Assembly: GCF_004005945.1 (NCBI RefSeq)
Contig: NZ_SACS01000015.1
Coordinates: 1-64,000 of the forward strand
From: Rheinheimera riviphila
GTDB taxonomy: Bacteria > Pseudomonadota > Gammaproteobacteria > Enterobacterales > Alteromonadaceae
Direction of reading: 5' to 3'
DNA: 64,000 bases
Below, one piece after another: positions 26,988-63,070 of the stretch (position 1 is its first letter; the number at the start of each line of letters is the position of its first letter). The notes under the pieces are model-generated. The model had not been told where the DNA came from, ran no database searches, and saw only the letters and a list, made by a program, of their open reading frames with translations. Made by a program: the position numbers and the translations under genes.

Positions 26988-27878
26988 ATGATAATAATAT
27001 CGCAAACTGCAGATCTCGAAATGTTACTAGCGGTGTTCGACAGTGGCAGCTTTACCGCGGCGGCTGGTCAGCTGAATGTGCCGGTGGCCAAAGTCACCCG
27101 TGCTATTCAACGGTTGGAAACGTCGTTGCAGGTGAGCTTGTTTCACCGCACGACGCGGCGGGTGGAAGCCACCGCCGATGGGCAGCTGTTTATTGAACAA
27201 GTGCGCCCGGCGCTGCAACAACTGGCGTTGGCCGAAGAGCAACTGAACCTGCAGCAAAGTGCGCCATCTGGCTTATTGCGGGTCGATGCCGCCAGCCCTT
27301 TTATCCTGCATCAGTTAGTCCCGCTGATGGCAAAATTCCGCGCCTTGTATCCAAAGATGACGCTGGAACTGATTTCCAGCGAGAACTTTATTGATTTAAT
27401 TGAAAAAAGAACCGATGTTGCGATCCGCATTGGCGCGCTGCAGGACTCGAATTTACATGCAACCTTGCTTGGAAAAAGCAAACTGCGACTGCTGGCAAGT
27501 GCTGGTTATCTGCAAAAATTCGGAACACCACAGCGCCCTGAGCAGCTGGCACAGCATCAGTTATTAGGTTTTGCTGAACACAGCAGACTAAATCATTGGC
27601 CATTATTGCCACCCCAAATCATCACCCCAACACTGGCCGCCAGCAGTGGCGAAACCCTGTTGCAGCTGTGTTTGCAGCATCATGGTATTGCCTTATTGTC
27701 AGATTTTATGACGGCGCCACAGCGTCAATCCGGAGAACTGATTGAAGTGCTACCGGGTCAGCTGCAAAGCCCCCATCCGCGCGAAAACGTGCAGGCGGTG
27801 TATTATCGACATTCCGCGTTATCGGGGCGGATCAGCGCTTTTATCCGCTTTTTGCAACAACAGCTGATCTTTGATTAA
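26988..27878 (+). CDS. LysR-family regulator next to an MFS exporter
   Basis: A 296-residue LysR protein: winged helix (about residues 6-65, MLLAVFDSGSFTAAAGQLNVPVAKVTRAIQRLE split by the turn) and substrate-binding domain (about 92-292). It belongs to the group typified by TAAGQL N-termini and VYYRHSALSGRISAFIRFL C-termini. The last 99 bases of the gene are part of the 181-bp block repeated at 32245-32425. Start ATG 26988 lacks a clear ribosome site. Probable regulator of the divergent exporter. Confidence 0.9.
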   Translation: MIIISQTADLEMLLAVFDSGSFTAAAGQLNVPVAKVTRAIQRLETSLQVSLFHRTTRRVEATADGQLFIEQVRPALQQLALAEEQLNLQQSAPSGLLRVDAASPFILHQLVPLMAKFRALYPKMTLELISSENFIDLIEKRTDVAIRIGALQDSNLHATLLGKSKLRLLASAGYLQKFGTPQRPEQLAQHQLLGFAEHSRLNHWPLLPPQIITPTLAASSGETLLQLCLQHHGIALLSDFMTAPQRQSGELIEVLPGQLQSPHPRENVQAVYYRHSALSGRISAFIRFLQQQLIFD

Positions 27879-27960
27879 ACTAAGTTTTTAGTTTGAGTAC
27901 ATGAAAATCTGCCACCACGGAAGCAACCATGACACCCGCCATCGAACTGCTTAAAAAACG
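27780..27960 (+). repeat. Left copy of a 181-bp direct repeat bounding the cassette
   Basis: Same length as 32245-32425, with about nine mismatches (roughly 95% identity by eye). It spans the last 33 codons of the LysR gene, the intergenic spacer, and the first 11 codons of a ybaK-type gene. The mismatches rule out a fresh target-site duplication and favour either an old duplication or integration of DNA from a related strain. Confidence 0.92.
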
Positions 27961-28060
27961 CAACTGCTGGTTGTTGAAATTTCGTTTTTTTTTGGTAGGT
28001 GGCTTCAATTGTCTCCTCTTCAATTGTACTTTGGCCGCAGCGGGAAAAGCTGGTGGTTAA
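27929..28060 (+). pseudogene. Truncated 5' end of the ybaK-type gene
   Basis: The first 11 codons (MTPAIELLKKR) equal those of the intact gene at 32394, with a similar upstream region; thereafter the frame continues for 32 unrelated codons to TAA 28058-28060. It marks the original LysR-ybaK junction, broken by the cassette. Confidence 0.85.
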
Positions 28061-28085
28061 ATCAAACCACACTATTGCCATTCAG

Positions 28086-28115
28086 GTAAAACGCCGGTGA
28101 TTGCCGACGTTTTAC
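28086..28115 (-). terminator. Inverted repeat downstream of the cassette operon
   Basis: Perfect 8-bp arms GTAAAACG/CGTTTTAC at 28086-28093 and 28108-28115 with a GC-rich loop, 27 bases after the stop of the minus-strand operon. There is no clear T-run, so it is a candidate terminator or mRNA-stabilising hairpin only. Confidence 0.4.
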
Positions 28116-28141
28116 TTAGAGCTGTCGAGTTGATTCTCCTG

Positions 28142-28870
28142 TCACTCACGAACCGTAAAAATCAACGAGGAAAATAGATGCTTATGGGCAATGCCTTTAA
28201 CGCCAGTGGTTCCTGGTGAAAAAACTAGCTCATCGGCCTGAAACAGATATTTCCCGGCGGACGATGGCGTAAACTCGACAATACCGTCTTTATTCACTCG
28301 GTAATCAGTAATAAAAGCATTGTCTGTTGCGCTATAGATGAACAGACTAGATGGGGCCATCGCTTTTCCATCCCGATACACCTGAATTGAGTATTTTTCT
28401 TTTACCTTGGCCAATTTTTTCTTATTCAATATTGGCATCACGTCCAGAAACATGTCTGAAGGTTTTTGATCTTCCGTTGGCGTAACATTGTCCATTACAA
28501 TGCTCAATCTGCTGAATTCAACTCTGCCGGGCAGCTGACGTCCGGAAAGTTTGTCAAACTTGGGCCTTTTAACCACCGGGACAGGCTCCAGCAGAATTGT
28601 TGCCATTCGCGCCTCAGCCTTGAGCACCACTTGGGTCGACGTTTCAGTGTTTTCTTTCTGCAGAATATTTGAAGAAGCATCCTGAATATTGATGCCGTAC
28701 CGCAGTTTGATATCGCCAGACATAAACCGACGCTCCACCAGAAAAGGAACCATTGATTCTGACAGCGTCAACTGGATCATTCCATTTTCTCTCAGTTCAG
28801 CGGTTGCCCATTTTATATGCGCATGGCATACCGTACTAAATAAAAAAAATAATACAATAACCGTTTTCAT
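28142..28870 (-). CDS. Secreted DUF4198-like protein with possible mature N-terminal histidine
   Basis: A 242-residue protein with a signal peptide (MKTVIVLFFLFSTVCHA) that, if cut after CHA, leaves a mature protein starting HIKWATAE. The C-terminal part reads like a DUF4198/Ig-like domain: YSIQVYRDGKAMAPSSL, then DYRVNKDGIVEFTPSSAGKYLF. DUF4198 proteins are periplasmic and often linked to metal uptake. An N-terminal histidine can form a copper histidine brace (as in CopC or LPMO), but no such site is proven here. ATG 28870 with AAAGGCG is chosen over the longer frame at 28912. It is the last gene of the AT-rich minus-strand operon, 25 bases after the cupin gene. Confidence 0.6.
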   Translation of the reverse strand: MKTVIVLFFLFSTVCHAHIKWATAELRENGMIQLTLSESMVPFLVERRFMSGDIKLRYGINIQDASSNILQKENTETSTQVVLKAEARMATILLEPVPVVKRPKFDKLSGRQLPGRVEFSRLSIVMDNVTPTEDQKPSDMFLDVMPILNKKKLAKVKEKYSIQVYRDGKAMAPSSLFIYSATDNAFITDYRVNKDGIVEFTPSSAGKYLFQADELVFSPGTTGVKGIAHKHLFSSLIFTVRE

Positions 28871-28895
28871 AAACATCGCCTTTAAACACCATATA

Positions 28896-29999
28896 CTAAG
28901 AAATAATACCAAAAGAAATGAGATTCTTTATTAGCGTTTTGTCGACTGGTTGTGTAGGATTATGATTCTCAACATTCTCCCGGAAAACCTCCTGAAAATC
29001 GGGCCCCGTTTCAAATGTAACACCATTGACTATATACGCGTCATTGAATTGGCTACGAAACACACCATTAAATTTTAGGTTATTCATCTCTACATCATCT
29101 ACAAAAAATGCCGTTGTATTTATTCTGGTTTTATATCGGATATGCTTCGTGTGCTCTTCGCAGAATTGTCGAAATACTAGCTCTGATGACGATATTTCAG
29201 AAAAAATAGACAACGAATGCAGCAAACTTTTTTGTTCGCTCCCCTCAATGTAGTCTCTGACAGATACATGATCTGCCATTTTGTTTGCCAACACCCAGCT
29301 CAGGAAATCCAACACCGTATTTGGAAATACCCCTATTGCTATGTGAAATGTGTCCTGATTATCCAGCGGAATTGCATCATGCCACCAGCCTCTTGGTATA
29401 TATAGAATATCGCCTGCTTCAAGTATGATATCCAAGCAAGGTTCGGTCGGACGTTCAGGATAGTTCTTACTTTTCTGGTGCGGCAACGGGTCGATGAACG
29501 TTGGCGGATATATTTTCCAACGTTTTTTCCCAATGAGCTGGACGGCATAGACATCGTGGCTATCCCAATGCATATTAAAAGTTCCGCAGCCTCCTCTTGC
29601 TGCATAACTGTTTGCATTGGTCAGGCAGCCAGTATATTTAGAAAACATCTGGCAGATATCGCTGATAATAGAACATTTGTTCTGCATTTTATTTAATACA
29701 ACAGATGCGCCATCCTGAATAAGCTGACTAAGCTTATGAGGTACTATTCTTTTCCTATAAGCACCAAAATTAAAGTAAGTCTCAATGTAGTCACTTTCTG
29801 TCAGTTTTTCTTTGCTGTAAATACTTAAATCTTCAAAACCTGATAGGCAGAACAATGCGTTATCAAATAACTTCCAGTTATAGTCAATTTCATTTAGTAC
29901 ACTTTTATAGAGCAAGGATCGTTTAGATAAATGTGAACTATCGACTACTGCCTTTAAACATTCGTAATTTTTATTTTCTATCTTGCCAGTTAAATTCAT
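28896..29999 (-). CDS. JmjC/cupin-type Fe(II)/2-oxoglutarate oxygenase-like protein
   Basis: A 367-residue protein with the core of a JmjC/Cupin_4 oxygenase: iron ligands H144 and D146 in MHWDSHDV, a following LIGKKRWKIYPP strand-turn, and the distal H207 in GDILYIPRGWWHDA. Relatives include bacterial ribosomal oxygenases (YcfD/RoxA) and the eukaryotic asparagine hydroxylase FIH; these hydroxylate protein side chains. It is not in the usual ribosomal-oxygenase setting. The start lies one base after the stop of the ankyrin-like gene, so the two are translationally coupled. FIH-type enzymes modify ankyrin repeats, making that neighbour, or the small CX10C protein, a plausible substrate (inference). 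Confidence 0.8.
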   Translation of the reverse strand: MNLTGKIENKNYECLKAVVDSSHLSKRSLLYKSVLNEIDYNWKLFDNALFCLSGFEDLSIYSKEKLTESDYIETYFNFGAYRKRIVPHKLSQLIQDGASVVLNKMQNKCSIISDICQMFSKYTGCLTNANSYAARGGCGTFNMHWDSHDVYAVQLIGKKRWKIYPPTFIDPLPHQKSKNYPERPTEPCLDIILEAGDILYIPRGWWHDAIPLDNQDTFHIAIGVFPNTVLDFLSWVLANKMADHVSVRDYIEGSEQKSLLHSLSIFSEISSSELVFRQFCEEHTKHIRYKTRINTTAFFVDDVEMNNLKFNGVFRSQFNDAYIVNGVTFETGPDFQEVFRENVENHNPTQPVDKTLIKNLISFGIIS

Positions 30000-30000
30000 G

Positions 30001-31686
30001 TTACTGCAGCCTTGAAATTAAATCAGCATCGGATTTTCTTTTTATAGCGGCTTCCAACGGAGTCAATCCTTGTACGGATCTTGCGTATTTAATATCATGA
30101 TGTTTTTTGTAAATTTCGATGGCATCCACATTATTATTATTAATGAACATAAATATGGCCTTTTCATGCATATTCGCACCACGAAGCATTAATTGCTGAA
30201 TCACGCCGCCAGATCTCATTTTTATAACGCATTGAGTTAACAAAGAAGAATACACTTTCGACTTATCAGAAGCAGAGCGCCCATCCAAATATTGGTCTAG
30301 TGAAAATAAACCTTTATCCGTGTCTCCCTGAATAATCAAATCAAAAGCTGTTCTAACCGCGGCAACGTCTGCCAGGTCATCATCCGAGATCAACAGCGCT
30401 GCCTTAAACATTTTTTCAGCCTGTGACAAAGATCCATCAAATAAAAAGCTGGCTTTGTTTTGTTCTGTATGATTGATGTTGGCAGAACTGGTACTTTCTT
30501 TCACTTGAGCCTGTTGTTGTGCTGTCGTGGGAATGCACGTGTCAGCTTCGCTTTTAAGCATCCTTAGCTGCTGATAAATAGAGCTGTTTTTTTCAATGAG
30601 GCCTTGCAATTTCGTTAGTCGCTGAGGATCTAACTTACCCGACAGGAGCTCAACATTATCTTTTTTACTTACCAAATATTGTTCAGATAACATTTCAAAA
30701 ATTTCCGGTCGAAAGTTAGTTTTCACATACTCGAGATAAGCCGCTAGTCTGCTGGCTCGGGCTGGAGCAAGTTCATACTGAGCTGCCAATGAGACTAACT
30801 CTTGTGATGACATTGTGTTTTCATTTTCTTCAAAGTTAACAAAATCAAGAACATTATAGCCATCTATCAAGCTTAGACCGACACCATGTACTTGGTAAAA
30901 ATGCAAAGAATAATCATAAAGTTTTTTATAAGCACTATAAGTGACTAAATTATATGAAACACCGTCAATATTAAATTCAACTGAGAGTTCAGATTTAATA
31001 TAACCAGAAATTTCATCGATTAATTGAAAAGATTTTCCAGCATCTATCGCTGTGACCAGATCCATCACTGACGGTTTAAATCCTTGCTTAATCAAAACGT
31101 TAATAGTATTCAGAGTATCTATCTCTTTTTTTACATTTGCGAGTGCAAAAGCCAACATTGTTCTATCATTTATAGTTTTATTTATCAGCTCAGGATTGTC
31201 TGACAAATAGCTGGATAAACCACTCAGATCCTGATCTGAAATCAATCTCGTGAATTTAATCAAATCGACCGGTTCCATAACTTTTCCCGGAAACTCAGCG
31301 ACGCTGCGATTAAACTGAGGTAATACAGAACGAAATTCGCTGATGGACAAAAAACTTCCTGTAGATTCGAGATAATTTTCTTTTACCACCTGACTTACTG
31401 CAGCATGCTCAGCCAGGTGAAATATATTTTTATTGTTAGCAGAAATCTCTTGTTGAAATTTTGTGAGTAAATATTTCATATTGGGGCCACATTGTTTCAT
31501 TTCAGCTAAGTTTGACGTTGCTGACTTAACTTCGATCTCAGTACCGGCCGAAGCCTGTTGCAAAGTATTTTTCGTCTCAATTGGCGCAATATGCTCTGCA
31601 CTGCTGTTGTCACTGGAACGAATAAACATGTACAACGCGCCTGCAATGAGAGCCATACATAAAACGTGTGTAATAGATATCTTCAT
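30001..31686 (-). CDS. Membrane-anchored protein with ankyrin-like repeats
   Basis: A 561-residue protein with one N-terminal span (about residues 5-22, THVLCMALIAGALYMFI) and a long, mostly helical remainder. Ankyrin-like pieces: about residues 155-210 (LSGLSSYLSDNPELINKTI, then NDRTMLAFAL and INVLIKQGFKP) and the C-terminus (NNVDAIEIYKKHHDI, GLTPLEAAIKRK). Most of the protein, about residues 210-480, is not recognised. Orientation is probably periplasmic. The start codon has no Shine-Dalgarno sequence; a 7-bp GC hairpin lies 10-26 bases upstream. Strongly AT-rich compared with flanking genes. Confidence 0.6.
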   Translation of the reverse strand: MKISITHVLCMALIAGALYMFIRSSDNSSAEHIAPIETKNTLQQASAGTEIEVKSATSNLAEMKQCGPNMKYLLTKFQQEISANNKNIFHLAEHAAVSQVVKENYLESTGSFLSISEFRSVLPQFNRSVAEFPGKVMEPVDLIKFTRLISDQDLSGLSSYLSDNPELINKTINDRTMLAFALANVKKEIDTLNTINVLIKQGFKPSVMDLVTAIDAGKSFQLIDEISGYIKSELSVEFNIDGVSYNLVTYSAYKKLYDYSLHFYQVHGVGLSLIDGYNVLDFVNFEENENTMSSQELVSLAAQYELAPARASRLAAYLEYVKTNFRPEIFEMLSEQYLVSKKDNVELLSGKLDPQRLTKLQGLIEKNSSIYQQLRMLKSEADTCIPTTAQQQAQVKESTSSANINHTEQNKASFLFDGSLSQAEKMFKAALLISDDDLADVAAVRTAFDLIIQGDTDKGLFSLDQYLDGRSASDKSKVYSSLLTQCVIKMRSGGVIQQLMLRGANMHEKAIFMFINNNNVDAIEIYKKHHDIKYARSVQGLTPLEAAIKRKSDADLISRLQ

Positions 31687-31695
31687 TGTTTTTTG

Positions 31696-31712
31696 GGGGG
31701 AGAAACTCCCCC
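31696..31712 (-). promoter_or_regulatory. Intercistronic GC hairpin between small-protein and ankyrin-like genes
   Basis: Arms GGGGGAG (31696-31702) and CTCCCCC (31706-31712) with a 3-base loop, lying in an AT-rich operon. On the transcript it is followed by A-rich sequence and the ATG at 31686, not by a U-run. It hides the only purine-rich ribosome-site-like stretch, so it may reduce translation of the second gene or protect the 3' end of the small-protein mRNA. Confidence 0.6.
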
Positions 31713-31728
31713 TATCCTTGTTGTTATT

Positions 31729-32040
31729 TTATAATCTGTCACATTTTCTATAAGCGTCACTGCGTGCACTCGAACATTGGAAATATGATATGACGGTATC
31801 AATAAATCCATTGGCCAAAGCCATACAATCTTGGTAGTCAGTATCTGCCTGATCCATACACTCCAACCTTGCGTCTCCATCCTGACTCGGGTCTGCAAAC
31901 GCCCTAGTCAACCCAAAACCAAACTGATGGTTAATGCTAGCCAGCGAGTCATCTGGATTTAGCTCAATATCAATCCGTTCAATAGTGAAATTGCCCGTTA
32001 AGCAGACTGTCGCCAAAACGCCTTTCGAAATGTTGTTCAT
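31729..32040 (-). CDS. Small protein with twin CX10C motifs, first gene of the cassette
   Basis: A 103-residue acidic protein not recognised as any known family. Cysteines 61, 72, 89 and 100 form two CX10C pairs separated by 16 residues, the pattern of a disulfide-stapled helical hairpin. The N-terminal 60 residues (one more Cys at 13) lack a clear signal peptide and could be a leader; a break could lie near ADPSQDGDAR (49-58). Its ribosome site, AAGGAGGG, is the strongest in the region, suggesting much higher expression than the genes below it. A secreted peptide, a modified peptide precursor or a structural partner are all possible. Confidence 0.65.
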   Translation of the reverse strand: MNNISKGVLATVCLTGNFTIERIDIELNPDDSLASINHQFGFGLTRAFADPSQDGDARLECMDQADTDYQDCMALANGFIDTVISYFQCSSARSDAYRKCDRL

Positions 32041-32244
32041 AAACCCTCCTTTTAATTAACAATAATTAACCTTATCACCCAAATAATGCGAATACAAACA
32101 ACTACCACCAACATTTACAGCCCGTTATTTTCTTATTTAGTTAAATCTGGTAACTTAACTACTGGTTTTTGCATGGTTGTAATCATCCGCATCAGCGGCC
32201 GGGCGCCGGATCGTAGCTTTAAGTATGTGGCTGTCCGCAAATTC
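32041..32244 (-). promoter_or_regulatory. Promoter region of the AT-rich cassette
   Basis: 204 bases upstream of the CX10C gene. The part next to the gene (32041-32170) is very AT-rich and should hold the promoter; no box is convincing. The part from about 32175 to 32244 turns GC-rich, reads in frame with the LysR remnant, and may be left over from the donor or from the junction. Confidence 0.4.
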
Positions 32245-32343
32245 CGCGAAAACGTGCAGGCGGTCTACTATCGACATTCCGCGTTATCGGGGCGGATCAG
32301 CGCTTTTATCCGCTTTTTGCAACAACAGCTGATCTTTGATTAA
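32245..32343 (+). pseudogene. C-terminal remnant of the LysR gene
   Basis: Encodes the last 32 residues of the LysR protein (ENVQAVYYRHSALSGRISAF and onward) identical to the end of the intact gene at 27878. Nothing upstream in the frame matches LysR, although the frame is open back to 32086. Confidence 0.9.
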
Positions 32344-32425
32344 ACTGGGTTTCTAGTTTGAGTACATGAAAATCTGCCACCACGGAAATCAGCATGACAC
32401 CCGCCATCGAACTGCTTAAAAAACG
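32245..32425 (+). repeat. Right copy of the 181-bp direct repeat bounding the cassette
   Basis: Pairs with 27780-27960. Differences cluster in the non-coding spacer and near the ybaK ribosome site. The right copy continues into the intact ybaK-type gene; the left one into the cassette. Confidence 0.92.
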
Positions 32426-32861
32426 AAATTTCCTGTTTCAGGTACTTAGTTATCAACATGATAGCCATAGTTCGTCTTATGGTTTGGAGGCGGCCGAAAA
32501 GCTGCAATTAGACCCAAAGCTGGTGTTTAAAACTTTGGTGCTGCAACTTGAACCCGCAGAGCTGGTCGTGGCAATACTGCCGGTGAGCCATCAATTGGAC
32601 TTAAAACAACTGGCCAAAGCCGCAGGTAGCAAAAAAGCCGCGATGGCCGCGCCCGCAGCCGTTGAGCGCAGTACCGGTTATGTCTTGGGTGGTGTCAGCC
32701 CGCTGGGTCAGAAAAAACGCCTGCGCACTTTTATTGATCAAAGCGCCGAACATTTACCGCTGATTTATGTCAGCGCCGGTCGTCGTGGGCTGGAAATTGC
32801 GATAGCGCCCGAGCAATTGCAACTGTTGCTTGGTGCGAGTTTTGTGGGATTAGCCCAGTAG
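32394..32861 (+). CDS. ybaK: YbaK/EbsC-type Cys-tRNA(Pro) deacylase
   Basis: A 155-residue single-domain editing protein. YbaK hydrolyses Cys-tRNA(Pro) mischarged by prolyl-tRNA synthetase in the cytoplasm. Family features: DPKLVFKTLVLQL (about residues 36-48), conserved lysine of the KTL motif, KKAAMAAPAAVERSTGYVLGGVSPLGQKKRL with the GGVSP loop, and YVSAGRRGLEI. Length and order are normal (E. coli YbaK is 159). Start ATG 32394 follows GGAAA. Its original LysR neighbour was separated from it by the cassette. Confidence 0.93.
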   Translation: MTPAIELLKKRNFLFQVLSYQHDSHSSSYGLEAAEKLQLDPKLVFKTLVLQLEPAELVVAILPVSHQLDLKQLAKAAGSKKAAMAAPAAVERSTGYVLGGVSPLGQKKRLRTFIDQSAEHLPLIYVSAGRRGLEIAIAPEQLQLLLGASFVGLAQ

Positions 32862-33113: not shown

Positions 33114-33126
33114 AAGGAGATTGACC

Positions 33127-34437
33127 ATGGCTAATGACAAAAGACGAGGTAGTAACGTAACGCACAATCAAGTAAGTTCCGCTATATCTTCCAATATCGA
33201 ACAGCTGCTACTCGACGCTCTGGATCGTGGCGATGACAGCCTGGAAACGGGTCGCTACCTGATTAGTTATCGGGAAGGCATGTTAGATGAAGGGATTCAA
33301 TCGCTGAAAACCCAACACTTTCGAATGGCGGATGCCCGTGATTATGCAGATCAGGCCGTGATCCTGGAGGATGCCGGAGATGCTGAAGTCATGGTGTTCC
33401 CAGAGTTAGATGTAGCGCTGGTCAGTGGGGATGCCTTACAAAACCATGGGATCAGTAATTTTAGTACTTTGCAGGAACAAAACTCAGTTCAGGTGGTGGA
33501 ACCTGAATATTTTGCCTTTGCGGATAGTTCTGAATATCTACGTGGTTTTATCAGTGCCGCCACTGCTATTGCCAAAGATCTTGAATCTCAGCCCCAGGCT
33601 CCGGCTCCGGATGAACAACTGGATATTGAAGTGCTGGGGACAACCTGGGGTTTAACCCGTTGCAAAGTACCGCCAAGCACCCGCTCAGGCTCTGGGATCA
33701 AAGTCGCGGTGTTGGATACCGGTATGGATTTGGGACACCCGGATTTTGTTGGGCGAAGTTTCGTCACCCAGACCTTTGTCGGTCAGCCGGTTCAGGATCT
33801 GCATGGTCATGGCACCCATTGTGTCGGCACCGCCTGTGGCCCTAAGGCACCTGCGGGTTCGACACCAAGGTATGGCATAGGGTTTAACAGCAAAATATAT
33901 GTTGGCAAAGTATTATCCAATTCAGGCAGTGGTTCCAGTGCCAGTGTATTGGCTGGCATGAACTGGGCAATTGCCAACAGATGTGAAGTGATTTCAATGT
34001 CATTGGGTAGCCCAAGTCCGGTTCAGGCGGCGTATACCAATGCTGGCGCCGCTGCTTTACGAAATGGTTTACTAATCGTTGCGGCGGCGGGGAATTCGGC
34101 TTCCAATACCGGTGCGCCAGCCAACTCGCCGACTATTATGGCTGTAGCTTCATTGGATCCGAGTCTGATACCATCGAGCTATTCCGATTTCGGCAAGATT
34201 GATATCGCAGGGCCCGGCCGGGATGTGTTTTCATCGTGGCCACGGCCAACCCGCTACAAAACCATTAGTGGTACCAGTATGGCGGCACCTCATGTTGCCG
34301 GTTGTGCGGCTTTGTGGGCACAGACTAATCCGGCTTTTCGTGGCATGAATCTGTGGCGGCAGTTACAATTAACAGCAATGCGATTACCCTATCCTGCGAC
34401 TAAGGTTGGTGCAGGATTAGTTCTGGCTCCAAAATAA
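33127..34437 (+). CDS. Subtilisin-like serine peptidase (S8) without signal peptide
   Basis: A 436-residue S8 peptidase. The triad is visible: Asp in VAVLDTGMDLGHPDF (about residue 197), His in HGHGTHCVGTACG (about 232) and Ser in SGTSMAAPHVAG (about 382), with the oxyanion asparagine in VAAAGNS. Residues about 1-165 form a long prodomain-like region. No signal peptide is seen, so it is either cytoplasmic or exported by another route. ATG 33127 follows AAGGAGA; an in-frame TTG at 33121 overlaps that site. A separate propeptide-like gene follows at 34512, with a hairpin between. Confidence 0.9.
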   Translation: MANDKRRGSNVTHNQVSSAISSNIEQLLLDALDRGDDSLETGRYLISYREGMLDEGIQSLKTQHFRMADARDYADQAVILEDAGDAEVMVFPELDVALVSGDALQNHGISNFSTLQEQNSVQVVEPEYFAFADSSEYLRGFISAATAIAKDLESQPQAPAPDEQLDIEVLGTTWGLTRCKVPPSTRSGSGIKVAVLDTGMDLGHPDFVGRSFVTQTFVGQPVQDLHGHGTHCVGTACGPKAPAGSTPRYGIGFNSKIYVGKVLSNSGSGSSASVLAGMNWAIANRCEVISMSLGSPSPVQAAYTNAGAAALRNGLLIVAAAGNSASNTGAPANSPTIMAVASLDPSLIPSSYSDFGKIDIAGPGRDVFSSWPRPTRYKTISGTSMAAPHVAGCAALWAQTNPAFRGMNLWRQLQLTAMRLPYPATKVGAGLVLAPK

Positions 34438-34469
34438 CCAAGATGTAACGGATCGTTGGAGCTTTTATC

Positions 34470-34493
34470 TGGCCTCCTGCATGCGGGAGGCCA
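34470..34493 (+). promoter_or_regulatory. Hairpin between subtilase and propeptide-like genes
   Basis: Perfect 8-bp arms TGGCCTCC (34470-34477) and GGAGGCCA (34486-34493) with an 8-base loop. No T-run follows, so it is more likely an attenuating or mRNA-processing hairpin than a full terminator. The small gene starts 18 bases later. Confidence 0.6.
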
Positions 34494-34511
34494 CTTTCAG
34501 AGGTGCTACTT

Positions 34512-34751
34512 ATGTCAAACGAACAACTGTGGATTGTCACTATCGATCATGAAAAATCAATTGCACAGGTCGTCCGGCAACTTGAAACAAGAGGCTTGGC
34601 TGTCCATTCGGTGCTCGCCGAAGTGGGCTGTGTCACAGGTTCAGCTGCGGAAAGTCAGTTAAGTGCATTGCGCGCCGTTGATGGTGTTCTGGACATTGCC
34701 GCAGACTTTCCAGTCCAGCTTGATACCGAGGCTGATTCAGGTGTCTGGTAA
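34512..34751 (+). CDS. Stand-alone inhibitor-I9/subtilisin-propeptide-like small protein
   Basis: A 79-residue protein with the beta-alpha-beta-beta-alpha-beta pattern of subtilisin propeptides (LWIVTIDHEKSIAQVVRQLE, VHSVLAEVGCVTGS, LSALRAVDGVLDIAADFPVQL). Such domains fold the protease and inhibit it until cut off. Placed 74 bases after the subtilase on the same strand, it may act in trans as a folding helper or inhibitor of that enzyme (inference). ATG 34512 follows AGAGG; the in-frame GTG at 34503 overlaps the ribosome site. Confidence 0.7.
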   Translation: MSNEQLWIVTIDHEKSIAQVVRQLETRGLAVHSVLAEVGCVTGSAAESQLSALRAVDGVLDIAADFPVQLDTEADSGVW

Positions 34752-59264: not shown

Positions 59265-59441
59265 AATTTTTCCAAATGGCCGATACAACGGCGGCACGTC
59301 AACAGCTTGTTATTAAAACTAAAACTGAATAACGCGATCAAAGCGCGACTCAAATTTGTGAAATTAATGTGATTTTTAGTGGATTAATTAAATAAACATG
59401 TGTACCATTTTCCTGTTTTTTGTCACTTATACAGGGATTGT
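59265..59441 (+). promoter_or_regulatory. AT-rich promoter region of the type I secretion operon
   Basis: 177 bases, AT-rich, no gene. It contains repeats of TGTGA/AATTAA and AT tracts around 59360-59395. The ribosome site CAGGGA lies just before ATG 59442. Confidence 0.5.
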
Positions 59442-61640
59442 ATGTCACATTCTTCGCCGTTTGCTGTTGGCGTAAAATGTTTAGCTGTTGTCGCAAGGAT
59501 GCATCAAATACCGGTTTCACCGAATGCTCTAATCCGAGAATTCGCCCCGCAAAATGATGACCTCACAGATATTTATCTGATTAAAGCCGCCAAAAGTCTT
59601 GGCTTTAAAGCGAAGTTTATTCATGCCGAACCGGCAAAACTTGATCCGCTCTTGTTACCGGCTGTCGGTAAATCCAAAGACGGCAGCTATTTTGTGCTGG
59701 CCAGAATCAAAGGCGAGCGTGCGCTGATTCAGGATCTGGAAACCGGGCAGACGCAGAGTATTTCATTAACATTTTTGGCATCAATGTGGACCGGTGAATT
59801 ACTTCATCTGGCCAAGCGCACCAGCATCGTGGCCAGCAACACCAGTTTTGGTTTTCGCTGGTTTATTCCGGCGTTGCTGAAATACCGTCATCTGTTTGCT
59901 GATGTACTCCTGGCATCGTTTTTTATTCAACTCGTTGGTCTGGCCACGCCGATTTTCTTTCAGGTCACTATCGATAAAGTATTGGTACACAAAGGTTTAA
60001 CTACTTTAGATGTACTGGCCGTTGGCTTTTTTGCCGTGATTACCTTTGAAGTCTTATTAACCGCTTTACGCACCTATGTGTTTAGCCACACCACCAACAG
60101 AGTTGATGTGGAATTGGGTGGTTTGTTGTACCGCCATATGTTGGCCTTGCCGATTTCGTACTTTGCCATGCGCCGGATTGGCGATACGGTCGCCCGTATT
60201 AAAGAATTGGATAAAGTCCGCGAATTTATCACCGGCTCATCGTTAACCGTGGTATTGGACGTGTTGTTCAGTGTGGTGTTTTTTGCGGTGATGTTTTATT
60301 ACGCACCGCTACTGAGCTGGATCGTCGTCGGGTCAATTCCTTGTTACATCCTGCTGTCGATTCTGATCACGCCAACACTGCGGGACAAGCTGGAACAAAA
60401 ATTCCAGAAAAGCGCCGAAAACCATTCGTTTTTGGTGGAATCGGTCTCCGGCATTGAAACGGTAAAATCGCTGGCTGTTGAACCGCAAATGCGTAATAAA
60501 TGGGAAGAAAAGTTAGCGGATTATGTTTCCAGCTCGTTCGACGCTTCACATATCAATAACATCTATTCAAGTATTGCCAGTTACATCAACAAAGTGGTGT
60601 CCCTGCTGACGTTGTATTTTGGCGCTTTAACCGTGGTGGAAGGCTCGCTCACTGTCGGGCAGTTTATTGCGTTTAATATGCTGGCGCAGCGGGTGTCTGG
60701 CCCAATCATGCGCTTGGTCAACTTGTGGCAGGATTTTCAGCAAGCCAAGGTGTCAATTGAGCGTTTGGGCGATGTACTCAATGCTCCGACTGAACCTGGT
60801 TACAACCCAAACCGCACCGTCCTGCCCAATGTGACGGGTTGTGTCACGCTGGAACAAGTAAACTTCCGTTACCGCCCTGATTCAGCGGCCATCCTCAATA
60901 TGGTGTCGTTACAGGTCAATGCTGGTGAACGAATTGGCATCGTTGGTCGTTCGGGCTCGGGGAAAAGTACTTTAACCAAATTGATTCAGCGCTTGTACGT
61001 GCCACAGGGTGGACGCGTGTTAATCGACGGTATTGACCTTTCGTTGGTGGAACCGGCCTGGTTGCGTCGGCAAGTTGGCGTGGTGCTGCAGGAGAGCTTT
61101 TTATTTAACGCCAGCATCCGCGACAATATTGCCCTGAGCGACCCCGCCAGCGATATTGAAGCGGTGATCCGGGCGGCAAAATTAGCCGGTGCTCATGAAT
61201 TTATTTGTGAATTACCCGAGGGCTACGACACGATTGTCGGCGAGCATGGTTCCAGTTTATCGGGTGGCCAGCGCCAGCGTATGGCGATTGCCCGCGCCTT
61301 GATTGCGAACCCAAAAATCCTGATTTTTGACGAAGCAACCAGCGCGCTGGACTATGAATCTGAACGCATTATTCAAAGCAATATGGCCGAAATCTGCGCC
61401 GGACGTACGGTATTTATCATTGCCCACCGCTTGTCTGCAGTACGCGATTGTCATCGTATTGTAGTGATGGATAAAGGCCAAATCGCCGAACAAGGTAGCC
61501 ATTCCGAACTACTGCACTTGCAGGGCATTTACCATCATCTGGTGCAAATTCAGCATGGCGGTCCGGTTGTCGTCAATGCTCAACCGGTCAACCTTGCCAG
61601 AAAAGACCACAACCCTACTGATCCGGTGGAGGTTGTATGA
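59442..61640 (+). CDS. Type I secretion ABC transporter (HlyB-like)
   Basis: A 732-residue exporter: N-terminal C39-like domain (about 1-130), transmembrane domain (about 150-430), and nucleotide-binding domain (about 455-710) with Walker A GRSGSGKST (about 503), Q-loop, signature [15 protein letters not shown] and Walker B LIFDEATSALD. The C39 domain lacks the catalytic residues: Tyr for His in DGSYFVLARI, and no Q-x-x-C pocket, so it is a C39-like chaperone module as in HlyB, pointing to RTX-type or similar unprocessed substrates. Four-base overlap with the next gene. Confidence 0.93.
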   Translation: MSHSSPFAVGVKCLAVVARMHQIPVSPNALIREFAPQNDDLTDIYLIKAAKSLGFKAKFIHAEPAKLDPLLLPAVGKSKDGSYFVLARIKGERALIQDLETGQTQSISLTFLASMWTGELLHLAKRTSIVASNTSFGFRWFIPALLKYRHLFADVLLASFFIQLVGLATPIFFQVTIDKVLVHKGLTTLDVLAVGFFAVITFEVLLTALRTYVFSHTTNRVDVELGGLLYRHMLALPISYFAMRRIGDTVARIKELDKVREFITGSSLTVVLDVLFSVVFFAVMFYYAPLLSWIVVGSIPCYILLSILITPTLRDKLEQKFQKSAENHSFLVESVSGIETVKSLAVEPQMRNKWEEKLADYVSSSFDASHINNIYSSIASYINKVVSLLTLYFGALTVVEGSLTVGQFIAFNMLAQRVSGPIMRLVNLWQDFQQAKVSIERLGDVLNAPTEPGYNPNRTVLPNVTGCVTLEQVNFRYRPDSAAILNMVSLQVNAGERIGIVGRSGSGKSTLTKLIQRLYVPQGGRVLIDGIDLSLVEPAWLRRQVGVVLQESFLFNASIRDNIALSDPASDIEAVIRAAKLAGAHEFICELPEGYDTIVGEHGSSLSGGQRQRMAIARALIANPKILIFDEATSALDYESERIIQSNMAEICAGRTVFIIAHRLSAVRDCHRIVVMDKGQIAEQGSHSELLHLQGIYHHLVQIQHGGPVVVNAQPVNLARKDHNPTDPVEVV

Positions 61641-63070
61641 ACCAGCCGCAACAAAATTCAGTGCCTCAAGACGCGGCTGCAACATCGAATACTATCGTAT
61701 CGAATACTACCGCATCGAATGTCGTGCAACTGCCGCTGGCGAAAAAACTTAGCCGCGAGCAGCTGAGCTTTCTGCCAGCAGCATTGGAAATTGAGGCCGC
61801 CCCACCTGCCCCATATAGTCGGATAATTTTGTGGGCCATTATGTTACTGCTGGTCGTCGCTATTGCCTGGGCATGCTGGGGGCAAATTGAGATCACCGCC
61901 AGTGCCCAGGGTAAGTTGGTACCCGGTTCGCAGGTGAAGGTGATCCAGCCATTAAACGCTGGGGTGGTGACGGCAATCCATGTGCGTGAAGGGCAAAAGG
62001 TCGCTGCCGGTGATGTGCTGTTAACGCTGGATAGCACCATCACCGAAGCCGAGCTGGAACGTCTGCGTGTGCAGCTTGAAGGTGTGCAGCAAGATATTCA
62101 GCGAACGGAATTGTTGCAACAACGGTTACATGCCCCGCAACGGCCTGCTTCAGCGCTGGCATCAGCACAGCTGCAGCCATTGTCCTTGCCACAACAACAA
62201 GCATTAGACAGCAGCTGGCTGGAATATCAGGCCAGGCAACTCAGCGTACAACGCCAAAGCGATAAACTGCTGGCGGAAGTGGACACCACCAAGCTCAATA
62301 TCAGCCGGATTGAAAAAACCATGCCGCTGATCACCGAACAAGCAGACAGTGTGCAGAAGCTACTGGAGAAGTCGCTGGCATCGCGCAGCCAATATCTGGA
62401 ACTGGAACTCAACCGCATTAATCAGGCGGAAAGCCTGACCATCGAAAAAGCCAAACTGCAACAGCTGGCTGCCGCCATTCGTGAATCAGCACAGCAACAA
62501 CAAGTGTTACAAGCCGAATTTCAGCGCCAGCTCAGTGAAGCGCAAAACCAGTATCACCGTGATGCCAGTGCGTTAACTCAGGAACTGATTAAAGCGCAAA
62601 ACACCAATTCACAACAACAGCTTTTGTCGCCGGTCAGCGGCACCATCGAACAACTGGCATTAACCACCATTGGCGGCGTAGTGACGCCTGCGCAGGAGTT
62701 AATGCGTGTAGTGCCACAAGACCAACAACTGATCGCCGAAGCCTGGTTATTAAACAAAGACATTGGTTTTGTCGAAGTAGGTCAAACAGCTGAAATTAAA
62801 CTGGAAAGTTTTGAATTTACCAAATACGGCGTAATAGACGGTGAAATTATTGATGTCTCAACCGATGCGGTAGAAAAAGAAGGGCTGGGCTTGGTCTTTC
62901 CTTTAAAAGTGAGCTTAAAGCAGCATAATATTCGGGCAGGTAATAAAACGGTGCCTTTAGGGGCTGGCATGACAGTCACTGTTGAAGTGAAGACCGGTGA
63001 ACGACGTGTGATTGAATTTTTATTGTCCCCGGTGATAAAGGCTGTGGATGAAGGGGTTAGAGAACGATGA
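61637..63070 (+). CDS. Type I secretion HlyD-like adaptor
   Basis: A 477-residue adaptor: short N-terminal cytoplasmic part, one span (about residues 63-82), lipoyl half (VHVREGQKVAAGDVLLTLD), a long Q-rich coiled coil (about 140-325), then SPVSGTIEQLALTTIGGVVTPAQ and a C-terminal domain ending VIEFLLSPVIKAVDEGVRER. Together with the preceding ATPase it makes the inner-membrane part of a type I secretion system; an outer-membrane TolC is not in the window. Confidence 0.95.
   Translation: MNQPQQNSVPQDAAATSNTIVSNTTASNVVQLPLAKKLSREQLSFLPAALEIEAAPPAPYSRIILWAIMLLLVVAIAWACWGQIEITASAQGKLVPGSQVKVIQPLNAGVVTAIHVREGQKVAAGDVLLTLDSTITEAELERLRVQLEGVQQDIQRTELLQQRLHAPQRPASALASAQLQPLSLPQQQALDSSWLEYQARQLSVQRQSDKLLAEVDTTKLNISRIEKTMPLITEQADSVQKLLEKSLASRSQYLELELNRINQAESLTIEKAKLQQLAAAIRESAQQQQVLQAEFQRQLSEAQNQYHRDASALTQELIKAQNTNSQQQLLSPVSGTIEQLALTTIGGVVTPAQELMRVVPQDQQLIAEAWLLNKDIGFVEVGQTAEIKLESFEFTKYGVIDGEIIDVSTDAVEKEGLGLVFPLKVSLKQHNIRAGNKTVPLGAGMTVTVEVKTGERRVIEFLLSPVIKAVDEGVRER

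Follow-up and report, generated by a model that had tools for sequence, protein, structure and literature searches.

The window analyzed here, a stretch of 64,000 nucleotides from Rheinheimera riviphila (contig NZ_SACS01000015.1), contains an inserted cassette of four genes in which the gene for a small protein with two CX10C cysteine pairs (twin CX10C) stands upstream of the gene for a membrane-anchored, ankyrin-like protein. This pair of genes recurs in other genomes, and in relatives the CX10C proteins combine a constant N-terminus with a variable C-terminal domain (C-domain). We consider it moderately probable that the cassette encodes an exported, disulfide-stapled, bacteriocin-like CX10C product, a periplasmic ankyrin-like immunity protein and an oxygenase of the type associated with microcins. 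The four genes that an earlier note, made from the letters of the window, had described at 28142-32040 are all confirmed as open reading frames (ORFs), run in one direction on the minus strand and, with one RNA structure, make up the cassette as follows:

31729-32040, minus strand: twin-CX10C protein gene, 103 amino acids (aa); ORF with an extended leader ending in FGFGLTRAFA and the cysteine pairs C61-x10-C72 and C89-x10-C100; candidate toxin or bacteriocin
31696-31712, minus strand: intercistronic GC stem-loop between the CX10C stop and the ankyrin-like start; RNA fold of -13.3 kcal/mol, z = -2.41, T tail absent
30001-31686, minus strand: ankyrin-like protein gene, 561 aa; ORF with an N-terminal hydrophobic segment; candidate immunity protein
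28896-29999, minus strand: JmjC_2 Fe(II)/2-oxoglutarate (2OG) oxygenase gene, 367 aa; PF08007 at E = 1.6e-28; groups with microcin-associated enzymes
28142-28870, minus strand: gene of a secreted DUF4198-like protein, 242 aa; signal peptide by eye, DUF4198 at E = 1.9e-6, below the cut-off

The intergenic gaps are 42, 1 and 25 bases in this order and all four genes lie on one strand, so that they look like one operon; the strong ribosome site that had been noted for the small protein reads AAGGAGG. Intercistronic stems of this kind can hold the expression of the product gene of a bacteriocin operon above that of the downstream genes, and a stem with z < -2.5 (mononucleotide shuffles) was obtained in four of 12 folded CX10C-to-partner stretches, namely those of the window, L076, L091 and L040. 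The earlier note had proposed a conserved four-gene system. A comparison with the other 45 loci that were collected around ankyrin-like genes does not bear this out: the quartet was not found elsewhere, an outcome that the note had named as refuting its proposal, and because the oxygenase and DUF4198-like genes were not found in any of the 45 loci, the four-gene unit is replaced by a two-gene core.

Within the 46 loci, 19 of the 47 ankyrin-like genes have a twin-CX10C gene at most 700 bp upstream on the same strand, compared with none of the 161 other ORFs of at least 250 aa. Of 355 ORFs that were at least 75 aa long, did not overlap and were not ankyrin-like, 20 showed the CX10C pattern; 19 of these are the upstream partners and the twentieth (L073) lies 379 bases from an ankyrin-like gene on the opposite strand. 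The pattern used for the count was defined after a first look at the loci and the control count therefore outweighs any P value; the pairing exceeds chance. The 47 ankyrin-like genes include fragments (L031 in two, L093, L095, and L096) and genes truncated at contig ends, and L100 (Cys-rich neighbor without the full pattern) and L073 (neighbor on the opposite strand) were scored as partnerless. The loci derive from 57 match rows of a family scan with the profile A3 described below: 40 loci were taken, four rows lay in the window or in loci already included, five rows were left out (G124:C1:578253, G043:C14, G125:C24, G892:C84:551262, and G116:C4), and the others fell in the same loci. Two loci (L011 and L031) entered the set from other searches, the ankyrin-like ORF of L101 was added by hand before the count, L099 has no ankyrin-like ORF at E ≤ 1e-4, and between 3.6 and 17.5 kb of sequence was covered per ankyrin-like locus. 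Among the matches listed from the open-licence literature, no title or abstract concerned the CX10C/ankyrin-like pair.

Some loci carry a small membrane gene of 77-89 aa between the CX10C and ankyrin-like genes (L074 6182-6421, L075 4136-4405 and 9384-9644, L077 4158-4391, and L098 4974-5216), which possibly encodes an additional immunity protein. The genome that holds the window has a partnerless ankyrin-like relative (L030 7525-9177), as have L025, L065, and L066, and these may be orphan immunity genes or have another role; L030 and L004/L025 adjoin periplasmic solute-binding-like genes (by eye).

The combination of a constant N-terminus with an exchangeable C-domain was met in two pairs of relatives; the window holds a single copy, so that the architecture is seen in relatives. 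Locus L080 carries two CX10C genes (L080a/b) whose products have N-termini that are 98% identical (55 aa aligned) and C-domains that give no mutual BLAST match at E ≤ 0.01. In the pair L090/L098, which comes from one genome, the N-region is 93.5% identical over 108 aa and similarity between the C-domains was undetected. The first C-domain of L080 resembles those of L085 (83%) and L090 (33%), and each of the three genes has an ankyrin-like gene of 641-645 aa behind it. The second C-domain of L080 matches that of L109 (34.5% over 84 aa, E = 1e-13), a locus from a congener of the window's organism and of another genus than L080. Behind each of these two genes lies a member of a second, non-ankyrin family of membrane-anchored partners (about 350 aa, E about 4e-40), for which no Pfam family reached the cut-off. 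Members of this second family lie within L080 765-3167, L085 2806-3837, and L109 2250-3320 and were observed with a single subtype of CX10C C-domain. In the small number of cases available, the C-domain type thus appears to track the partner type, as it does in polymorphic toxin-immunity systems. Across the ankyrin-paired proteins, the distance between C-domains correlated with the distance between ankyrin-like proteins (Spearman 0.21, permutation P = 0.017, n = 18; P = 0.038 without three rows), and the distance between N-regions gave no such correlation (Spearman -0.006, P = 0.51, n = 17). Direct repeats were found around or between CX10C modules in L074 (3994-4143/8163-8308, 88%) and L080 (3852-4157/6787-7092, 97%) and hint at module duplication or exchange.

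The four cysteines of the window CX10C protein (C61, C72, C89, and C100) are invariant in a 21-member alignment (A4), an invariance that is partly a result of selection because most rows were chosen by that cysteine pattern. In most family members an extra cysteine pair is present, together with a hydrophobic, Gly/Ala-rich stretch between the CX10C units. The N-termini vary, with classical signal peptides at one extreme and, at the other, an extended leader with an end motif such as GWGWSLGFNKANA; by eye, the leader end FGFGLTRAFA of the window protein fits the latter type. In a hidden Markov model (HMM) of the C-domain that was built without it, the window protein ranked first among the 1258 ORFs of the window (E = 0.0042, next 0.57), with L075a, L077, and L091 cut at the wrong cysteine and L100 omitted from this model, and it was again at the top of the 1258 ORFs in full-length HMMs built without the window member (E between 0.0087 and 0.017). 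The protein is short and divergent, and its sequence taken by itself hints weakly at membership in the family; position, cysteines and HMM rank together make membership likely, short of certain. Like its relatives, it has a twin CX10C in a leader-bearing protein beside a membrane-anchored partner. A single-sequence model places helices at residues 54-74 and 79-101 with low confidence (pLDDT 51.2). None of the nine CX10C proteins scanned, the one of the window included, reached a Pfam cut-off, none of eight from these nine reached an NCBIfam cut-off, and the plasmid collection contained no match to the three CX10C proteins used as queries. In two congeners (L110 and L111; G521:C23 and G511:C2) the N-terminal part of the CX10C profile matches with E about 1e-7 inside reading frames of 1461 and 960 aa.

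The membrane-anchored ankyrin-like protein of the earlier note stands as to its anchor, since an N-terminal hydrophobic segment is present; the ankyrin part finds no counterpart in Pfam, as no ankyrin repeat was detected in the window protein. Repeats above the cut-off were detected in three of the nine ankyrin-like proteins scanned (L032 4.5e-11, L074 1.7e-13, and L040 2e-10). In each of the 33 ankyrin-like proteins of at least 500 aa, the 17-residue segment of highest hydrophobicity (mean 1.66 to 3.15) falls among the first 60 residues, no later segment reaching its value, and a cysteine near residue 58-103 is aligned in all 33. Judged by position, a second cysteine follows 301-348 residues after the first in 32 of the 33 and 255 residues after it in L102, the aligned column being Cys in 17 of 33. 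The N-terminal hydrophobic segment and the two recurring cysteines suggest a periplasmic domain closed by a disulfide. A single-sequence model of the window protein was unusable (pLDDT 35.6).

Of the 394 genomes that represent the order, four matched a three-row ankyrin-like profile, including one (G237) from a different family, and the six-row profile A3 matched 34 of 335 genomes of the same family, the Alteromonadaceae, in 20 of 52 genera; across 369 genomes spread over the class, the sole match of A3 was the window's own protein. A homolog of the window protein is encoded on a Pseudoalteromonas plasmid (88% of the length, 25% identity, E = 3e-27), a distant homolog was found in a congener, and the plasmid collection contained no match to the ankyrin-like protein of L032. 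A phage or virus origin was considered and rejected: the ankyrin-like protein had no phage match, and viral scans with this protein and with the oxygenase alignment confirmed no relative.

The oxygenase matches PF08007 (JmjC_2), and the iron ligands that had been named for it, H144, D146, and H207, are in place and, with a 2OG-type lysine (K159), invariant in a five-member alignment (A1). We take K159 to correspond to K355 of NO66. The best phmmer match was NO66 (E = 2e-14), and JmjC_2 and the NO66/MINA/RoxA structures fit the enzyme best. In an unrooted tree of 13 hand-picked sequences (those of the RoxA-like protein of the same genome, G193, and G342 taken from stop to stop), the enzyme groups with four others, from G319, an Acinetobacter plasmid, Moraxella pLQ510, and a Neisseria record, with a bootstrap value of 97 and 26-33% identity. 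Next to each of the four lie HlyD-type genes, peptidase-ABC genes and genes for short peptides whose leaders are, by eye, of the GG or GA type, and no ankyrin-like gene was noticed beside them in the stretches read. A JmjC/cupin gene of this group is an optional feature of microcin clusters, and the cassette carries it (split 97). Besides the window's own, three of the 394 genomes of the order gave a match at E ≤ 1e-15. A scan of genome contigs with the oxygenase gave one Anaerolineae locus (L016) with 31% identity over a short stretch, which was not used. Membership in a defense system was rejected, as the best PADLOC matches (E 0.0038 and 0.0061) were taken for noise. Elsewhere, a Rhizobium plasmid (L108 1302-5802) combines radical SAM/SPASM, JmjC and short genes in a possible peptide-modifying cluster, and an 8-kb plasmid of Acinetobacter lwoffii (L105 290-3524) carries a JmjC gene, an O-methyltransferase and an MFS gene, possibly a small biosynthetic set.

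The last gene of the cassette encodes a protein with a signal peptide (by eye) and a mature start at His (by eye), in keeping with the secretion that had been claimed for it; the claimed likeness to DUF4198 is less secure, the match of 28.6 bits missing the 34-bit Pfam cut-off. Of 147 family genomes, the 146 besides the window's own yielded no relative, and neither did the plasmid collection or the other 45 ankyrin-like loci.

The cassette lies between a LysR gene and a tRNA_edit gene that we take to be ybaK-like and is bounded by a 193-bp direct repeat whose copies are 93% identical:

27973-32244, no strand: inserted AT-rich cargo; gene part 39% GC, flanks 50-51%
27780-27972, plus strand: left copy of the direct repeat; 3' end of the intact LysR gene, intergenic stretch, and partial ybaK-like start
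32245-32437, plus strand: right copy of the direct repeat; partial LysR 3' end, intergenic stretch, and start of the intact ybaK-like gene
26988-27878, strand unspecified: LysR gene (Pfam), bordering the cassette
32394-32861, strand unspecified: tRNA_edit/ybaK-like gene (Pfam), bordering the cassette

The LysR-ybaK stretch was matched in five of 22 genomes of the genus (the window's own counted), and the congener G137 (L022) represents the empty site, with contiguous LysR and ybaK-like genes and one repeat copy. The intergenic stretch is common to both copies in the window and unlike that of G137, and the duplication is therefore likely to have originated in this lineage or to have been acquired from a close relative, for example by additive integration of a circle with homology. 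No recombinase was noticed among the cassette genes. The GC content was lower than that of both flanks in 18 of the 19 cassettes compared. On balance we favor the view that the cassette is a horizontally acquired antagonism module. Outside it, a subtilase-like gene (by eye) lies near the ybaK-like gene and is followed by a short ORF at 34503-34751, a possible inhibitor or partner (33121-34751 together), and an ABC transporter (59400-61640) with a C39-like N-terminal domain and an HlyD-like adaptor (59400-63070 together, by eye) resemble an RTX-type type I secretion set.

The course of events that we consider moderately probable is as follows. The CX10C protein would be exported through its extended, AxA-ending leader and would fold outside the cytosol into a helical hairpin with two disulfides (C61-C100 and C72-C89), acting as a secreted bacteriocin-like protein or toxin component. 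The ankyrin-like protein, held by its N-terminal anchor, would place a disulfide-closed domain in the periplasm and serve as the cognate immunity protein. This agrees with the product-immunity idea of the earlier note, in that the CX10C protein is probably an exported product beside an immunity-like gene. The oxygenase would most likely hydroxylate the CX10C precursor in the cytosol before export; alternatively, it may be a further means of self-protection, in the way reported for McaB. The DUF4198-like protein would be an accessory, perhaps binding metal. The gene content, the insertion, the recurrence of the gene pair, the architecture of the relatives and the residues and grouping of the oxygenase are observed; export, disulfides, toxicity, immunity and hydroxylation with its substrate are inferred. 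A more far-reaching and tentative proposal is that the Alteromonadaceae possess an undescribed family of polymorphic, disulfide-stapled, secreted twin-CX10C toxins whose C-domains can be exchanged and to which membrane-anchored immunity proteins (ankyrin-like or of the second family) are matched, the toxin of the window being oxygenated by the JmjC enzyme and so a hydroxylated, cysteine-stapled bacteriocin.

Several known systems share parts of this organization. Twin CX9C/CHCH proteins also have two cysteine pairs on two helices; the window protein differs from them in its spacing of ten, its bacterial origin and its leader, and no homology is claimed. The ribosomal oxygenases NO66, MINA, and RoxA have the HxD..H triad and the 2OG-binding Lys or Arg in common with the window enzyme, which nevertheless is only 18.5% identical to the RoxA-like protein of its own genome and lies in a different gene neighborhood. 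The mcaABCD cluster of an Acinetobacter baumannii class II microcin combines, like the window, a small exported product with an adjoining cupin-like gene; it differs, as far as the available text describes it, in a GA-type leader, an HlyD and peptidase-ABC exporter and the lack of an ankyrin-like gene, compared with an AxA-type extended leader and twin CX10C in the window (PMC10333792). A plasmid locus with the gene order of mcaABCD (L012) encodes a JmjC enzyme of the window's group, McaB itself being likened to it by gene order and not by sequence. The mctABC genes of E. coli Mcc1229 likewise join a Cys-rich product to a cupin gene, according to the accessible text (PMC8853679), with a different product and transporter, and the MctC-like enzyme of pEC6868-2 (so taken from gene order) falls outside the window's group. 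In the mcbABCI cluster of Moraxella catarrhalis pLQ510 a JmjC gene (two reading frames in L013) lies beside a GG bacteriocin; the immunity gene is mcbI, and the words cupin and jumonji are absent from the main text of that paper (PMC2761928). Ankyrin immunity proteins and polymorphic toxins are kinds already known (PMC3482391): the accessible account describes ankyrin-repeat immunity (Imm-ank) and C-domains exchanged behind a constant N-terminus, as in the CX10C relatives, but no CX10C domain, and conversely no RHS, VgrG or similar delivery domain was noticed in the CX10C loci.

A number of observations weigh against the reading of the cassette as a bacteriocin-like unit with matched immunity. 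Of the six common cysteines the CX10C protein of the window retains four, it has no central hydrophobic stretch, and the full-length A4 profile, its own row included, failed to recover it in its own genome at E ≤ 0.01. The cassette product has no GG or GA leader (translation read by eye), and no peptidase-C39 ABC exporter or HlyD is found among the cassette ORFs; in the same genome, PF03412 is present at C26 and at 59466 in the window, about 27 kb from the cassette. One genome (G111) has a CX10C gene and no ankyrin-like match. Short matches (18-20 residues, E 0.001-0.006) also link the first CX10C protein of L109 to those of L080, L085, and L090 that are paired with ankyrin-like proteins. The distance correlation is seen with the middle part of the ankyrin-like proteins (P = 0.025) and vanishes when their last 150 residues are used (0.08, P = 0.23). 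The matching of C-domain and partner is thus suggested by a few cases and a weak correlation, with the N-region comparison as the sole control for kinship. Furthermore, 28 of the 47 ankyrin-like genes have no CX10C partner by the count given above, among them those of L030, L025, L065, L066, L067, and L069 in the genus of the window, so that the ankyrin-like family either is not solely an immunity family or contains many orphans.

The partnerless genes would also suit CX10C proteins that are variable surface or envelope proteins (for kin recognition, adhesion or signaling); the ankyrin-like protein would then act in the periplasm as their chaperone or receptor, and the diversity would be a recognition polymorphism. 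A constant N-terminus, a variable C-domain and a matched partner fit recognition systems too. This explanation is unlikely, as spare copies of the second partner family without a CX10C gene of their own (L080 765-1796 and L085 2806-3837) resemble orphan immunity genes, the cassettes are low in GC and the window oxygenase groups with microcin-cluster enzymes. Far less probable is the suggestion of the earlier note that the oxygenase hydroxylates the ankyrin-like protein in the manner of FIH, an enzyme that hydroxylates ankyrin repeats. The two genes are 1 base apart in the window, and yet oxygenase and ankyrin-like genes occur together in this one locus of the 46, the other 45 having no JmjC ORF, a point that also weighs against the reading that we favor. 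The lack of a Pfam ankyrin repeat in the window protein and the fit of the enzyme to JmjC_2 and NO66/MINA/RoxA speak against FIH-style hydroxylation as well. Moreover, 2OG chemistry is cytosolic and the ankyrin-like protein looks periplasmic, and the four closest oxygenases sit beside microcin genes with no ankyrin-like gene noticed in the stretches read, which makes the ankyrin-like protein a less likely substrate than the precursor.

It is also conceivable, if rather unlikely, that the oxygenase is mainly an McaB-like immunity factor acting on incoming or cytosolic toxin and that the ankyrin-like gene is a second immunity gene. The cupin-like mcaB alone was reported to suffice for protection of Acinetobacter against Mcc17978 in the available part of that study (PMC10333792), and the gene order of L012 equals that of mcaABCD. 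On the other hand, the accessible text on E. coli Mcc1229 names the cupin gene mctC among those required for activity (PMC8853679); the pEC6868-2 enzyme, taken as an MctC relative by gene order, is 24% identical to that of the window and lies outside its group. For neither McaB nor MctC does the accessible text describe an enzyme activity. Finally, the oxygenase and the periplasmic gene may be unrelated additions that a CX10C/ankyrin-like cassette acquired at or before its insertion. Such a chance assembly, to which we give slightly less credence still, is favored by the restriction of both genes to one of the 46 loci and disfavored by the tight spacing of the four genes on one strand and by the grouping of the oxygenase with enzymes of bacteriocin clusters.

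If the reading of the cassette as a bacteriocin-like product with cognate immunity is correct, the pair would represent an unrecognized class of secreted proteins in a bacterial group, variable and stapled by disulfides, each with its cognate, membrane-anchored partner. A function would then be at hand for the CX10C proteins, of which the nine scanned reached no cut-off in Pfam. It would also make the role of the JmjC "cupin" genes in bacteriocin clusters testable, as one of product modification or of producer protection.

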